64,000 nt of DNA, from contig QCJE01000002.1 of the NCBI GenBank assembly GCA_003216235.1, positions 1-64,000 of the forward strand. The letters are read 5' to 3'. This document shows positions 551 to 6,449 of this stretch, piece after piece. Positions within the stretch are counted from its first letter, which is position 1, and each line of letters opens with the position of its first letter. The notes beneath the pieces are model-generated. The model saw nothing but the letters and a program-made list of their open reading frames with translations. It did not search any database and was not told the origin of the DNA. The position numbers and the translations under genes were made by a program. Source of the DNA: Pelagibacteraceae bacterium AG-404-P07. Its GTDB lineage: Bacteria > Pseudomonadota > Alphaproteobacteria > Pelagibacterales > Pelagibacteraceae.

Positions 551-1120
551 ATGAATGATTTTTTACAATCTATAATTGACCGAGATCCTGCGGCAAAATC
601 TAAGTTAAGTTTAATCTTAACTTACCCAGGTGTTAAGGCTATTTTATTTTATAAAATTGCAAATTTTTTTGCTGTTGCTAAATTTGATTTAGTTGCAAGA
701 ATTATTTCTCAATTCGCGAGATTTTTAACAGGAATAGAAATACATCCAAAAGCAAAAATTGGAAAAAATTTATTAATTGATCATGGTATGGGAGTAGTAA
801 TTGGAGAAACTTCAGAGATTGGTGACAATGTTACTATCTACCACAATGTTACTTTAGGTGGAATCGCACCAAGTATTAATTCAAATGACCAAAGAGATAT
901 GAAAAGACATCCAACTTTAGAGGACAATGTTGTTGTTGGGTCTGGTGCACAAATATTAGGTCCTATAACAATAGGTAAAAATTCATTAATTGGATCTAAT
1001 TCAGTAGTAACTAAAAATGTTCCTGAAAAATCTGTTATGGCAGGCATTCCTGCTAAAAAAGTTGGTGATGCTACAAAAGGATTTAAACCTTATGCTGTTA
1101 CTGATGAAGAAAAAGAATAA
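551..1120 (+). CDS. cysE: Serine O-acetyltransferase
   Basis: Left-handed beta-helix hexapeptides, [44 protein letters not shown]; adjacent to cysK. Confidence 0.93.
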
Positions 1121-2121
1121 TGACAAGCATTAGAAATAATTTTATCGACTCAATTGGTAATACCCCTCTTATAAAGTTAAAAGCAGCTTCTGAAATAACT
1201 GGATGTAATATTTATGGAAAAGCTGAATTCTTAAATCCAGGTGGTTCAGTTAAAGATAGAGCTGCATTAGCACTAATCAAAGATGCTCAAGATAAAAAGT
1301 TAATCTCAAAAGGCGGTATTGTTGTTGAAGGTACAGCTGGTAACACTGGTATTGGTTTAGGTCTATTAGGTAATTCACTTGGTTACAAAACAATTATTGT
1401 AATGAATGATAATCAAACTCAAGAAAAAAAAGATACATTAAAAAACTTAGGTGCAGAATTAAAGTTGGTTCCAGCAAAACCTTATAAAGATGATGGGAAT
1501 TATGTAAAGGTTGCTGCAAGGCTGGCTGATGAATTACGACCCTCTAACAACAATGGAGTTGTCTGGGCTAATCAATTTGATAACACCGCTAATGCAAAAG
1601 GTCATTATGAAGGAACTGGAAAAGAAATTTGGGATCAAACTAAAGGTAAAGTTGATGGTTTTGTTTGTTCATCAGGAACAGGCGGAACTATTTCGGGAGT
1701 TAGTAATGCTCTTAAAGAAAAGAATAAAAATATAAAGATCTATTTATCCGATCCAAAAGGTTCTGCTCTTTATAATTATATTAAAAATGGCAAATTGAAA
1801 TCTGAGGGAAATTCAATTACTGAAGGAATTGGCTCTAGTAGAATTACTAAAAATTTTGAAAATGCTAAAATTGATGGCGCTTTCTCAATTGATGATCATG
1901 AGGCTCTCCCTATTCTTTATGATTTAATTCAAAATGAAGGTTTAAGCTTAGGAACAAGCTGTGGAATTAATATTGCAGGAGCAATTAGACTTGGAAAAGA
2001 GTTAGGTCCAGGAAAAACTATTGTCACTATTCTTTGCGACAAGTCAGATAAATACAACTCTAAGATGTTTAACAAATCATTTTTACAAGAAAAAAAACTA
2101 CCTATCCCTAGTTGGCTATAA
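1120..2121 (+). CDS. cysK: Cysteine synthase (PLP-dependent)
   Basis: NPGGSVKDRAAL PLP-lysine motif, EGTAGNTGIGL, SSGTGGTISG; start overlaps cysE stop. Confidence 0.92.
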   Translation: MTSIRNNFIDSIGNTPLIKLKAASEITGCNIYGKAEFLNPGGSVKDRAALALIKDAQDKKLISKGGIVVEGTAGNTGIGLGLLGNSLGYKTIIVMNDNQTQEKKDTLKNLGAELKLVPAKPYKDDGNYVKVAARLADELRPSNNNGVVWANQFDNTANAKGHYEGTGKEIWDQTKGKVDGFVCSSGTGGTISGVSNALKEKNKNIKIYLSDPKGSALYNYIKNGKLKSEGNSITEGIGSSRITKNFENAKIDGAFSIDDHEALPILYDLIQNEGLSLGTSCGINIAGAIRLGKELGPGKTIVTILCDKSDKYNSKMFNKSFLQEKKLPIPSWL

Positions 2122-2126
2122 TATCG

Positions 2127-2165
2127 CATAGCTGCTATGTAACAAAATTGTTACTTTTTTATTTT
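2127..2165 (+). terminator. Probable rho-independent terminator after cysK
   Basis: GTAACA-AAAT-TGTTAC hairpin followed by TTTTTTATTTTAT; an additional CATAG-CTG-CTATG hairpin directly upstream. Confidence 0.7.
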
Positions 2166-2187
2166 ATAATTAATTAATTTAAAATTA

Positions 2188-2232
2188 AATAAAGATTAGC
2201 GGAGATCTTTATTAACCAGATATGGAGATCTT
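2188..2232 (+). promoter_or_regulatory. 5' leader hairpin with duplicated ggagatctt element next to the ribosome-binding site
   Basis: AATAAAGAT-tagcggag-ATCTTTATT stem (2188-2213); second ggagatctt copy abuts the ATG at 2233. Confidence 0.4.
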
Positions 2233-2622
2233 ATGCTAAAAAATATTTTAAAAATCTTTGCCACCTACTGTTTTACAATTTTAATTTCTACCTCATCAAT
2301 TGCTGGTATGAGTGACAACGACAAGTCTAAAGCTTGGGATTGCACTGGTATTTATATGGCTAACTACTTTCTTCCCTCTGGTGAAACATTTGAATACGCC
2401 ATGAAAGAAAAATCAATATCAACTGTCAAGGTCCTTAAAACATATGCTCTTGAAATAGGCATTCCTGAAAAAGAATGGGATGAGGGAGTTAATAAAGCAG
2501 TAGATAAACATTACGGCTCTAAATATGATAAAGCTAAAACCGATAAATGTCATACATTTGTAGAAGCTTTGGTTCCAAATGGAGCTGAAAGAGTCAAAAA
2601 AGTAATTCAAACTTTATATTAA
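2233..2622 (+). CDS. Small exported protein of unknown function, paralog of the next gene
   Basis: Signal-peptide-like N-terminus; WDCTGIYMAN ... DKCHTF shared pattern with 2625-3005. Confidence 0.75.
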   Translation: MLKNILKIFATYCFTILISTSSIAGMSDNDKSKAWDCTGIYMANYFLPSGETFEYAMKEKSISTVKVLKTYALEIGIPEKEWDEGVNKAVDKHYGSKYDKAKTDKCHTFVEALVPNGAERVKKVIQTLY

Positions 2623-2624
2623 TT

Positions 2625-3005
2625 ATGAAAAAAATAATTTTAACTTTATTGTTTGTATTCTTTACATTTTCTGCATTAGCAGATGGTCATTTAAGCAAAG
2701 CAGATAAAGAGAAAACAATAGAATGTACCGGAATTTATTATGCTAATAGCATGATACCCCAAGGAGAGCTTGAATTAGACAAGATTGTTCACTCTTTCGC
2801 AGCTAAAAAGTTTTTAAATTCTTATTTGATAAAGGAAGGTGTTAAGGAAGAAAAACTTAACGAAGAATTATTAAAAGTTGTCGATATTCGTTACGGTAAA
2901 CCATATGAAGAAAAAACAACAAAAAAATGTGATGAATTTATCTTTAAATTAATTTCTGGATCTAAAGATGAAATTAAGAAAATAGCAGAATCAGGAATAT
3001 ATTAA
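2625..3005 (+). CDS. Small exported protein of unknown function, paralog of the previous gene
   Basis: Signal peptide; IECTGIYYAN ... KKCDEF. Confidence 0.75.
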   Translation: MKKIILTLLFVFFTFSALADGHLSKADKEKTIECTGIYYANSMIPQGELELDKIVHSFAAKKFLNSYLIKEGVKEEKLNEELLKVVDIRYGKPYEEKTTKKCDEFIFKLISGSKDEIKKIAESGIY

Positions 3006-3022
3006 TAAACAAGGAGAAAAAA

Positions 3023-3307
3023 ATGGAAAAAGAAATGTTGGTGGTGGCTAAATTAAAAGAAGGTATGTTTGAAAAATTTATGGGATTTATGCAATCACCA
3101 GAGGGCTTAGCAGAAAGAGCTAAAGTTGCAGTAGTAGAAAAAACTATTGGAACGGTAACCCCAGATAAAAGCACTGTAATGTTCAAGATATTTTGTACTG
3201 ATGAACCTGCATTACACAAATTTATTGAAGGAACTGAAGTATCAAAACCTATCATGGATGCTGTTTTAGATAGCTATTCAATCTATGATTTAACAAAAGT
3301 AAAATAG
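3023..3307 (+). CDS. Small uncharacterised protein (possibly dimeric alpha/beta barrel-like)
   Basis: Clear ORF with RBS (aaggag) in operon context. Confidence 0.65.
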   Translation: MEKEMLVVAKLKEGMFEKFMGFMQSPEGLAERAKVAVVEKTIGTVTPDKSTVMFKIFCTDEPALHKFIEGTEVSKPIMDAVLDSYSIYDLTKVK

Positions 3308-3314
3308 GAAAAAA

Positions 3315-3623
3315 ATGAAAGTAATTTACACAAGAACAATGAGAGTAAAAGACGACGGCTTAGGAAAAGCAATGGAAATTGGGAAAGGTTTGGCTGCAGT
3401 TAGAAAAAAACATTATCCTAACCATGATGTCTATTTTTCTTTTCAAATGGGTGGAGACCCAAGAACAATAAGAGAAACTTTAATTGGAACTATGTTTGAA
3501 GGTGATAATGATGCTGACGCTAACATGTCTGCAGATCCTGAATATATAAAACTTTTAGAGCAATTAAAAGAAGTTGCAATAGAAGGGACTATTGAAGACG
3601 AGATTAGACCAATATTCAGTTAA
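3315..3623 (+). CDS. Small uncharacterised protein, possibly ABM/dimeric alpha-beta barrel fold
   Basis: Clear ORF in operon context. Confidence 0.65.
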   Translation: MKVIYTRTMRVKDDGLGKAMEIGKGLAAVRKKHYPNHDVYFSFQMGGDPRTIRETLIGTMFEGDNDADANMSADPEYIKLLEQLKEVAIEGTIEDEIRPIFS

Positions 3624-3635
3624 GGAATTTAAAAT

Positions 3636-4052
3636 ATGATAGAAAAATTTAATGGAATAATTTACTTAGCTGTATTTCTAATTCACTTTATTGGCTTTGC
3701 TTACTATGGATTTAGATGTGTGTTTCAAACACAATCTTTTTTAAATCAATATGGAATGCATGATACAGGTGCTGGGATTGTTAGATTTTTTGGATCTATA
3801 TTTATTGGATCAACTGTAATGGCAATTTATGTAGGTTTCATCAGACCAAATGGTTTAGAGGCTACTTGGGCTTTCTTTAATCTAATATTCTTGCAAAATT
3901 TGTCAGCATTTATAGTTGGTTTTTATAGTACAAAAATAAACAAACTTGGACATACAGATAAAACTTCGGATGAAGCGATTTATGCCCCTTTATTTTTAAC
4001 TATTTTAAGTGCTGTACTTTGTTACGGTTTAGCTGATAAAATATACGTTTAA
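3636..4052 (+). CDS. Uncharacterised integral membrane protein
   Basis: Four hydrophobic segments. Confidence 0.7.
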   Translation: MIEKFNGIIYLAVFLIHFIGFAYYGFRCVFQTQSFLNQYGMHDTGAGIVRFFGSIFIGSTVMAIYVGFIRPNGLEATWAFFNLIFLQNLSAFIVGFYSTKINKLGHTDKTSDEAIYAPLFLTILSAVLCYGLADKIYV

Positions 4053-4067
4053 ATAAAAGGAGGGGTT

Positions 4068-4418
4068 ATGGCAGGAGTAGAAGTAAAATCTTTCGAAAAA
4101 GCAGACGAGGTTAATGATAATTTTAATAACGCAAAAATAGAAGCTGTAAAAGTTGGAAACCAGAGGGTAATGAAACTTACATTGCAACCTGGATGGAAAT
4201 GGTCAAAAGATATTAAACCAACAGTTGGGGGTGATAGCTGTCAAGCAACACATCTTGGTGTAATTGTTTCAGGAGCTGTTTGTGCAAAACATAATGACGG
4301 AACAGAAATAACTTATAAATCTGGAGACGCATATGCTATTCAGCCAGGACACGATGGATGGGTAGTGGGAAATGAACCAGCTATTGTTTATGAGTTTCAC
4401 GGAATGTGGGGTGAATAA
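4068..4418 (+). CDS. Cupin-domain protein
   Basis: THLGVIVSGAVCAKHNDGTEITYKSGDAYAIQPGHDGWVVGNEP resembles cupin motifs. Confidence 0.75.
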   Translation: MAGVEVKSFEKADEVNDNFNNAKIEAVKVGNQRVMKLTLQPGWKWSKDIKPTVGGDSCQATHLGVIVSGAVCAKHNDGTEITYKSGDAYAIQPGHDGWVVGNEPAIVYEFHGMWGE

Positions 4419-4738
4419 TGTCGATATTAAAAAGATACACTGATGCAATAGATAAGAAAGACGAAGCAACTATGAATGAGCTTTTGCATGATGATTTTAA
4501 GTTCACAATGCATAAATCAGGAAATTCTCTTGGAAAAGCTGATGTAATTAAATGGGCAATGAGTGGTGATATAAACCAAGATAAAGCTCGCATCGTGTAT
4601 GAAAATGATGAAGTTGGTGTACATCATTCAATCGTAACTTTTAATGATGGAAATGTGGAAGCTGTAATGGCAGTTTATAGATATAAAGATGGAAAGATTA
4701 CTAGTTTAGAAACTGGTGCTACTCCAATGTCTAAATAA
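4418..4738 (+). CDS. SnoaL/NTF2-like fold protein
   Basis: YTDAIDKKDEATMNELLHDDFKFTMHKSG; start overlaps previous stop. Confidence 0.7.
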   Translation: MSILKRYTDAIDKKDEATMNELLHDDFKFTMHKSGNSLGKADVIKWAMSGDINQDKARIVYENDEVGVHHSIVTFNDGNVEAVMAVYRYKDGKITSLETGATPMSK

Positions 4739-4959
4739 TGTTTTCAAAAAAATATTTTGATTTCATATTCATTTTAATTATGGGTTTTGGCATGAGTTTA
4801 CTAATGACTCTTATAATAACTTATATTAACACTGGAATGGATGACAAGTATATTAATAGATTTTTAAAAGCATGGTCAGTAAGTTTGCCTATAGCAATAA
4901 TAGCTGCACTTGTTCTTGGTCCACCAATCAAAAAATTTGTAGATAAAATTACTAAATAA
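4738..4959 (+). CDS. Small two-TM protein, DUF2798-like
   Basis: Two TM segments with MTLIITYINTGMDDKYINRFLKAWSVSLPIA; start overlaps previous stop. Confidence 0.65.
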   Translation: MFSKKYFDFIFILIMGFGMSLLMTLIITYINTGMDDKYINRFLKAWSVSLPIAIIAALVLGPPIKKFVDKITK

Positions 4960-4974
4960 TAATAATCTTTAATT

Positions 4975-5310
4975 GTGAGTAACATTGTTGCATATATAGT
5001 CCTTATTCTTGCAGTTATTTTAGGTACTGCAGCGAATGGTTTTGCCAAAGGTGCAAATGGTTTTACATTATTAATGCCAAGTTTATTAACGGCAATAACA
5101 ATAGTTGGCTGTATGTTTACATTGTCTATAGTTATGAAAACTATTCCTGTTAGTATAACTTATGCTTCTTTTGCAGGTCTATGTATAATAGCTACAACAC
5201 TTGTTGGAATATATAAATTTAATCAAATACCAGATCTTTATACTATCATTGGTTTGGCTTTGATTATCTCAGGAGTATTGATAGTAAACCTACTTGGTAA
5301 AACAGGTTAA
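4975..5310 (+). CDS. Small multidrug resistance (SMR/EmrE-like) transporter subunit
   Basis: Four TM, IPVSITYASFAGLCIIATTLVGIYKFNQIPDLYTIIGLALIISGVLIVNLLGK; GTG start. Confidence 0.8.
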   Translation: MSNIVAYIVLILAVILGTAANGFAKGANGFTLLMPSLLTAITIVGCMFTLSIVMKTIPVSITYASFAGLCIIATTLVGIYKFNQIPDLYTIIGLALIISGVLIVNLLGKTG

Positions 5311-5314
5311 ATTT

Positions 5315-5650
5315 ATGACAAATTTATCTGGATATATTTTTCTTCTTTTGGCTATCATTCTTGGAATAACTTCTAATGGTTTTTTAAAATCTACTAATGG
5401 ATTTACAAATCTGGGACCAACCATTTTTTGTGCAATTTCAATAGTAGCCTGCATTTTTTGTTTATCAAAAGCTATGAATATTATTCCCGTTGGTTTTACT
5501 TATGCAACATATGGAGGATTGACTATTACTGCGGTCACTTTATTTGGAGTCTTTAAATATAATCAAATACCAAATTTGTATGGAGTCATTGGAATAGCAT
5601 TAATCATTGTTGGTGTAATTTTGCTTAATACACTTGGAAAAACTACTTAG
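5315..5650 (+). CDS. Small multidrug resistance (SMR/EmrE-like) transporter subunit, tandem paralog
   Basis: Strong similarity to the preceding ORF; start moved to ATG 5315 giving the same 111-aa length. Confidence 0.8.
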   Translation: MTNLSGYIFLLLAIILGITSNGFLKSTNGFTNLGPTIFCAISIVACIFCLSKAMNIIPVGFTYATYGGLTITAVTLFGVFKYNQIPNLYGVIGIALIIVGVILLNTLGKTT

Positions 5651-6449
5651 AAACAGGTTTTAAAATTTTGAGCATTTTTTTGTGAAGATTTTTATTTGCT
5701 GAACAAATTATATTTCCAGCTTTTTTCGCATCAAAATTTTTCCAAGTTGTTACTATACCCCCAGCAGATTTAATAATAGGTATCAAAGCATGAATATCCC
5801 AAATTTTATTTCCACATTGTATAACAACATCAAGTTTACCCTCAGCAAAATGAGAGTAACTTAAAGCATCTGAGCAAGGAAATTGCATTCGTTTTAATAT
5901 TTGAGGAATTTTTTTTTGTTGATTTAAGGATAGACTTCCATGAAATGCTGCTGATAATTTCATGTTTGAAAAGATTGCTTTACGATTAACTTTTATTTTT
6001 CTTTTTTTTCCATTATCTGAAACATACGCTGAGTTTAAAGAAGTATTGAAATAATATTTTTTAAGTATTGGGAAATTAGCAAGACCTAAAATAGGATCTC
6101 CTTTGTAATTTAAAGAAATTAAATTACTCCATGTTGGGTTGCCAATAACAAATGATCGCGTTCCATCAATTGGATCAATTACCCAAGAATAGTCACTCTT
6201 TGATTTTTTAAAACCAAATTCTTCCCCTATCACTTGGTGAGTAGGAAATTTTTTATTAATTTCTTTCCTAATAAACTTTTCAAATGCTTTATCCGCACTA
6301 GTTACTGGATCATAACCTCTTCCTTTAAGTTTATTGGATGTTTTAAATGGTTTATTCAATTTAGAATAATAGAATTTAGTTAGTTTTTTAGCCAAACTCT
6401 CAATGAATTTAGAATAAGCTTTATAATCTGAAGATTTTAACATTAGCAC
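5643..6449 (-). CDS. Inositol monophosphatase family protein (possibly histidinol-phosphatase)
   Basis: IGEEFG, WVIDPIDGTRSFVIG, and C-terminal CGNKIWDIHALIPIIKSAGG. Confidence 0.88.
   Translation of the reverse strand: MLMLKSSDYKAYSKFIESLAKKLTKFYYSKLNKPFKTSNKLKGRGYDPVTSADKAFEKFIRKEINKKFPTHQVIGEEFGFKKSKSDYSWVIDPIDGTRSFVIGNPTWSNLISLNYKGDPILGLANFPILKKYYFNTSLNSAYVSDNGKKRKIKVNRKAIFSNMKLSAAFHGSLSLNQQKKIPQILKRMQFPCSDALSYSHFAEGKLDVVIQCGNKIWDIHALIPIIKSAGGIVTTWKNFDAKKAGNIICSANKNLHKKMLKILKPVSK

Follow-up and report, generated by a model that had tools for sequence, protein, structure and literature searches.

A flexible operon-like slot of tiny genes in SAR11 bacteria, possibly a modular kit for small molecules

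The gene run and its borders

The window analysed here is a stretch of 64,000 nucleotides from Pelagibacteraceae bacterium AG-404-P07 (contig QCJE01000002.1, positions 1 to 64,000), in which ten tiny genes, A to J, lie between cysE and cysK on one side and a convergent gene of the inositol-monophosphatase (IMPase) family on the other (Table 1). All ten open reading frames described in the earlier note on this DNA are present on the plus strand at 2233-5650, with positive coding scores of 32-94 under a hexamer model trained on long ORFs, and the gaps between them are as small as had been claimed (2, 17, 7, 12, 15, -1, -1, 15 and 4 bp from A to J), including the TAATG stop/start overlaps, which lie at 4416-4420 and 4736-4740. 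For J, the best start is the ATG at 5315, not the TTG at 5294. The run thus has the co-directional genes and short gaps of an operon, and a single transcript is a likely third trait.

Table 1. Features of the gene run and its borders in the window, with the basis of each assignment.
Feature	Position	Strand	Basis
cysE and cysK, left anchor, outside the cassette	551..2121	+	Hexapep and PALP Pfam matches; same left border in ~75 loci
Terminator-like hairpin of cysK (GTAACAAAATTGTTAC plus T run), then AT-rich leader	2122..2232	+	hairpin conserved
A, predicted exported helical protein, two invariant Cys (37, 106)	2233..2622	+	signal-like N-terminus, alignment, model
B, paralog of A (32% identity), predicted exported, same two Cys	2625..3005	+	sequence
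C, small protein of the cytosol, possibly a dimeric alpha/beta-barrel, without Pfam match	3023..3307	+	sequence
D, predicted dimeric alpha/beta-barrel protein, NIPSNAP/ABM/LsrG-like fold	3315..3623	+	model, fold search
E, four-TM protein, no Pfam match above cut-off	3636..4052	+	TM-like segments
F, small cupin-like protein	4068..4418	+	weak Pfam match; homologs also outside SAR11
G, SnoaL-like protein	4418..4738	+	Pfam
H, DUF2798 two-TM protein	4738..4959	+	Pfam, two TM-like segments
I, SMR-fold membrane protein, Gly for Glu14, Phe for Trp63, Asn18 invariant	4975..5310	+	Pfam, alignment
J, second SMR-fold protein, lacks Glu14 and has Tyr for Trp63, may pair with I	5315..5650	+	Pfam, alignment
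IMPase-family gene, right anchor, convergent	5643..6449	-	border comparison, Pfam

The hairpin and T run 3' of cysK are kept across the cysK-A gaps of relatives, and we infer that the AT-rich leader before A is the likely promoter of the cassette. Promoter and terminator scans of the region stayed at chance level, and no Rfam RNA was found in the leader. The hairpin itself (GTAAC...GTTAC followed by the T run, within 2122-2160) has the form of a low-GC terminator and was overlooked by a simple terminator scan.

Predicted proteins of the run

A and B had been taken for exported two-cysteine paralogs, and both indeed have a signal-like N-terminal helix, which suggests export, and the two invariant cysteines. 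The model of A consists of five helices after the signal, with block pLDDT values of 87-98 over most of the mature part, and its fold found no match among PDB and viral models at E <= 0.001; among 289 sampled genomes of the class, the only matches to A were the two from the genus Pelagibacter. In the genera of group g5 (L154, L159, L161), A/B relatives adjoin a run of suf-like iron-sulfur assembly genes and otherwise stand alone, except in L161, which has one G relative.

None of A to E has a Pfam match above cut-off, and sequence profile searches of A, C and D against the PDB gave nothing significant. C exists in two forms that are about 45% identical. The alpha/beta-barrel label is borne out for D, whose AlphaFold2 monomer model (pLDDT 81) has a ferredoxin-like b-a-b-b-a-b fold and finds NIPSNAP, ABM, LsrG and SnoaB with Foldseek (best E ~2e-6, TM 0.77-0.80). 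D is therefore predicted to be a NIPSNAP/LsrG-like dimeric alpha/beta-barrel protein, alike to the NIPSNAP, ABM and LsrG proteins in predicted fold but different in sequence, with only 9-17% identity to them and no Pfam match. Also among the fold matches is the glyoxal-modified PA0709, whose operon is a published glyoxal response (PMC12274486). When the families of the cassette were compared with each other by HHalign, only c41 and c48 proved clearly related; the matches among exported families cover about 20 aligned columns and are best read as common signal peptides.

Further along the run, E has the four TM-like segments expected of it, and the assignments of G (SnoaL_2, 35 bits, cut-off 27) and H (DUF2798, 73 bits, cut-off 23.5) are upheld by Pfam. 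The cupin label of F stands less firmly: a Pfam match was found, but at 17 bits it falls below the cut-off of 27, and a phmmer search against the PDB returned no significant sequence match.

I and J had been called SMR transporters and, in function, drug/metabolite exporters. Their homology to the family is clear (PF00893, 51 and 64 bits, cut-off 23.7), whereas the drug-export mechanism finds no support in the residues aligned with those of EmrE: in all 130 SMR-like proteins of the cassette, Glu14 (TM1) is replaced by Gly, Trp63 by Tyr or Phe, and Gly67, the second fulcrum glycine of the TM3 GXG motif, by Thr, Cys or Ala. The same 130 proteins all have Asn18 and Lys22, and 129 of them keep the tyrosine switch, Tyr60. 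A third SMR gene of the genome, outside the cassette, has both Glu14 and Trp63. I and J thus share with known SMR transporters (EmrE/Qac, Gdx, MdtIJ, ArnEF; PMC9574504) the sequence family, the four-TM size, the conserved tyrosine switch and frequent gene pairing, but differ from them in the lost glutamate, tryptophan and glycine and in the combination of Gly14 with an invariant Asn18. Lipid-type SMRs, which carry noncationic substrates, are often without the central glutamate (PMC9574504), and it is this glutamate-poor type to which the mechanism of I and J would come nearest, yet Qac models score best. The glutamate-less pair would let a non-cationic compound move down its gradient, not pump drugs with protons. 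Of the earlier interpretation as a whole, the operon-like conserved unit is supported, and the drug/metabolite exporters are not.

Conservation, content and turnover of the slot

One genome per species was scanned with protein D, which yielded 80 loci, almost all of them assigned to Pelagibacteraceae or Pelagibacterales and, as D was the search query, enriched for D; the window genes were mapped onto these loci, and all genes were called and clustered. The loci closest in identity to the window are from genomes of Pelagibacteraceae, which agrees with its place in this family. In nearly all 80, spanning much of Pelagibacteraceae, the slot between cysK and the IMPase gene carries a run of tiny genes. 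With such a run present in some 75 further species, a chance origin can be dismissed, and on the conservation half of the refutation test set by the earlier note the neighbourhood is found to be conserved beyond its own genome.

The 66 complete slots hold 8-16 genes each (median 11). Of these genes, 99.7% encode proteins of less than 200 aa, a share that drops to 44% among the remaining genes of the loci. Plus-strand genes make up 98% of the total (839 of 858), with a median gap of 15 bp; elsewhere in these compact genomes, genes that follow each other on one strand are just as tightly spaced (median 9 bp), and short gaps alone are therefore weak evidence for an operon. The majority order is kept in 98.0% of 3077 ordered pair observations, compared with 59% when the order is shuffled. 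Content is far more variable, with 44 distinct architectures in the 66 slots. Around a usual skeleton of A-C-c7-D-E-G-H-I/J we find the optional genes B, c20, c37, c30, c18, c41, F, c28, c22, c43, c47 and c48; by type, the optional modules include DUF1330, DUF3764, GYD, CMD, DSBA/HCCA-isomerase and TPR proteins, a second SnoaL protein and other cupins. In a deep group (L097, L098, L100, L104), the cassette begins with a reversed E and ends with DUF952 and DUF924 genes. Genes of these last two types also stand convergent between cassette and IMPase gene in several SAR11 lineages (L104, L097, L098, L100, L113, L135). Near 10116 in L029 and near 5628 in L045, an SMR gene was split by the gene caller and a small reversed ORF, c51, was called; c51 is most likely a calling artefact and was excluded from the counts.

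Content distance tracks cysK divergence only loosely (r 0.42), and no core gene of the cassette is universal: in 147 genomes of the family, drawn evenly but many of them incomplete, the A/B family was found in 61, C in 40 and D in 9. Nor does the operon have any fixed gene that belongs to a known pathway. In G086, which we take to be HTCC1062, the slot is nearly empty, so the kit is dispensable at least there.

In comparisons of close relatives, whole genes are present or absent between flanks that are 85-97% identical. Those gained or lost whole are c20, c20 with c37, E, C, c7, c18, c30, c41, c78 and an SMR gene. All 29 junction pairs have both ends no more than 40 bp from a gene boundary, where random placement would give 8%; the 29 events were counted by carrier genome and are not independent, representing about ten distinct gene sets. 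The junctions often lie in similar ribosome-binding and start contexts (43% pairwise identity, against 29% for random 26-mers), a similarity that would supply short homology, although their position at gene boundaries may merely reflect the purging of broken genes.

The complete genome G077 shows movement of a larger piece. It has an intact cysK at 342 kb without a cassette behind it (L183), and a cassette at 662 kb that directly follows a 52-codon cysK 3' remnant (L115, 6650-7330). The remnant has 75% DNA identity to the genome's own cysK and is followed by a stretch like the cysK terminator; the simplest reading, judging from these sequences, would be that the piece was imported from the cysK slot of another lineage. 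Just upstream of the remnant, L115 has a tRNA-like 3' stretch, in which ARAGORN calls no tRNA. As vehicles, a phage or virus was rejected, D relatives being absent from phage records and viral contigs and A from viral contigs, and so was a tRNA-targeted island, there being no tRNA in the window or in L115.

Recurrence elsewhere and competing explanations

Families of the cassette also cluster at sites unlinked to the slot, where the association with cysK is gone. In the genera of group g7, A, C, c7, c18, E and a GYD protein are gathered at a different site (L153, L156-158); in those of g6, C is joined by E or G at two more sites (L173, L174, L177); and in g9 the run is more complete, with E, a cupin, C, F, G, H and SMR (L175). 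Even outside the SAR11 order, in a distant marine alphaproteobacterium (G235, presumably HIMB59), four consecutive genes are relatives of G, D, F and C at 60-64% (C-F-D-G in L112), and a relative of that genome has C-F-G (L178). In another family of the order, F stands beside relatives of c47, GYD, ABM or c7 (L121, L123). C is the cassette gene that recurs most often in this way, and, by our reading, of the 22 sampled genomes with both A and C, 21 have the two genes within about 1.3 kb of each other. We consider this recurrence the best evidence for a functional tie between the families.

We accordingly read the locus, with confidence that is about evenly balanced, as a flexible SAR11 operon with a fixed slot, a near-fixed order and swappable single-gene modules that would together serve as a small-molecule kit. 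The modules, most with their own ribosome-binding site, come and go singly or in pairs, as the comparison of relatives shows, and would most likely be expressed as one transcript from the cassette's own promoter behind the cysK terminator. In the cytosol the kit would comprise small, single-domain proteins of dimeric alpha/beta-barrel, SnoaL-like, cupin and DSBA/HCCA-isomerase-like type; in the membrane, one four-TM protein, one two-TM protein and a pair of SMR-fold proteins; and beyond it, exported helical two-cysteine, c20 and TPR proteins. As a working hypothesis, the likeliest role would be to deal with several small organic molecules that occur around phytoplankton, for instance through isomerisation, oxidation or detoxification of reactive carbonyl, quinone or oxylipin-like compounds, with gene-content variation tuning the chemistry to the niche; the route would probably be one that apparently nobody has described. 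A fuller version, in which an order-locked plug-in operon obtains niche chemistry from shared one-gene modules swapped at ribosome-binding-site seams, and in which a novel exported two-cysteine fold and a non-proton-coupled SMR subtype moving the compound take part, is tentative and as a whole somewhat unlikely.

The slot might instead be a replacement-type flexible genomic island and nothing else, that is, a permissive and well-expressed landing site for unrelated small genes without joint function, whose order is kept by homologous recombination between shared neighbours. The many architectures, the loose correlation with cysK divergence, the clean whole-gene insertions and deletions and the nearly empty slot of HTCC1062 all suit this explanation, and variable content could indeed stem from independent functions with nothing in common but a favourable site of expression; yet the same families re-cluster away from the slot, both in other genera and beyond the order, A and C remain linked, and almost every gene of the slot is of one tiny type, which makes it a serious but unlikely alternative. 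With the SAR11 regions HVR1-4 and replacement flexible genomic islands (PMC2217521, PMC4033161), the slot has in common a variable content at a fixed position between conserved genes, but it is unlike them in its locked order, its tiny genes on one strand and its change gene by gene. It lies outside the four HVRs listed for HTCC1062, and the HVR gene lists of SAR11 hold other genes and leave cysteine synthase unmentioned (PMC2217521), just as a word search of the SAR11 island papers checked found no mention of cysK. In the open-licence literature searched (family names with Pelagibacter; SAR11 island papers), no description of the locus was found, in keeping with the earlier proposal of an undescribed system; an earlier account elsewhere is possible.

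A single defined pathway acting on one metabolite, with A, C, D, E, G and I/J as its core and optional side enzymes, would agree with the recurrent core of most slots and with the minimal recurrences C-E, C-G, C-F-G and C-F-D-G at new sites. We find it improbable, however, as its core genes are not universal (D in particular is much rarer in the family than A/B or C), C comes in two divergent forms, and the variety of gene sets, 44 among 66 slots, speaks against a fixed pathway. One pathway for one molecule suits the data less well than a modular kit made up of small enzymes and binding proteins. More doubtful still is a stress or redox kit, in which the two-cysteine, DSBA-like and barrel proteins would buffer reactive electrophiles or oxidants beside cysteine synthesis. 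The adjoining cysE and cysK in the genus Pelagibacter, the invariant cysteine pair of A and B and the similarity of D to PA0709 of the glyoxal response (PMC12274486) would favour such a kit, but the cysK link is lost at other sites, and neither cysK nor cysE was induced in a study of sulfur limitation (PMC5069961). An integron- or phage-borne gene-cassette array, which the slot resembles in having variable content, as single-gene modules, at one fixed site, is hardly credible, because gaps of about 15 bp are too short for attC sites, the order is conserved, unlike in integrons, the genes form one tight run with their own ribosome-binding sites, no integrase was noticed in the slots, the run in the window has no long repeats and the window no tRNA, and relatives of D are absent from the phage records and viral contigs, as are those of A from the viral contigs.

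SAR11 are the most abundant bacteria of the surface ocean, and their genomes are among the most streamlined known, so that eleven tiny uncharacterised genes kept together under selection must earn their place. If the modular kit is real, its substrate would reveal chemistry done by a very large share of ocean bacteria, and the locus offers a test case of an operon whose content is changed one gene at a time without breakage. Purifying selection is seen on every cassette gene tested, with median dN/dS values of 0.04 for D, 0.05 for c7, 0.06 for E, 0.07 for F, 0.08 for G, 0.15 for A/B, 0.20 for H, 0.26 for I/J and 0.27 for C, compared with 0.07 for cysK and cysE. The dS of D and c7, about 0.5 for the genes in L026-L105, is roughly half that of cysK (1.1), which may reflect exchange, or else strong codon selection or high expression.
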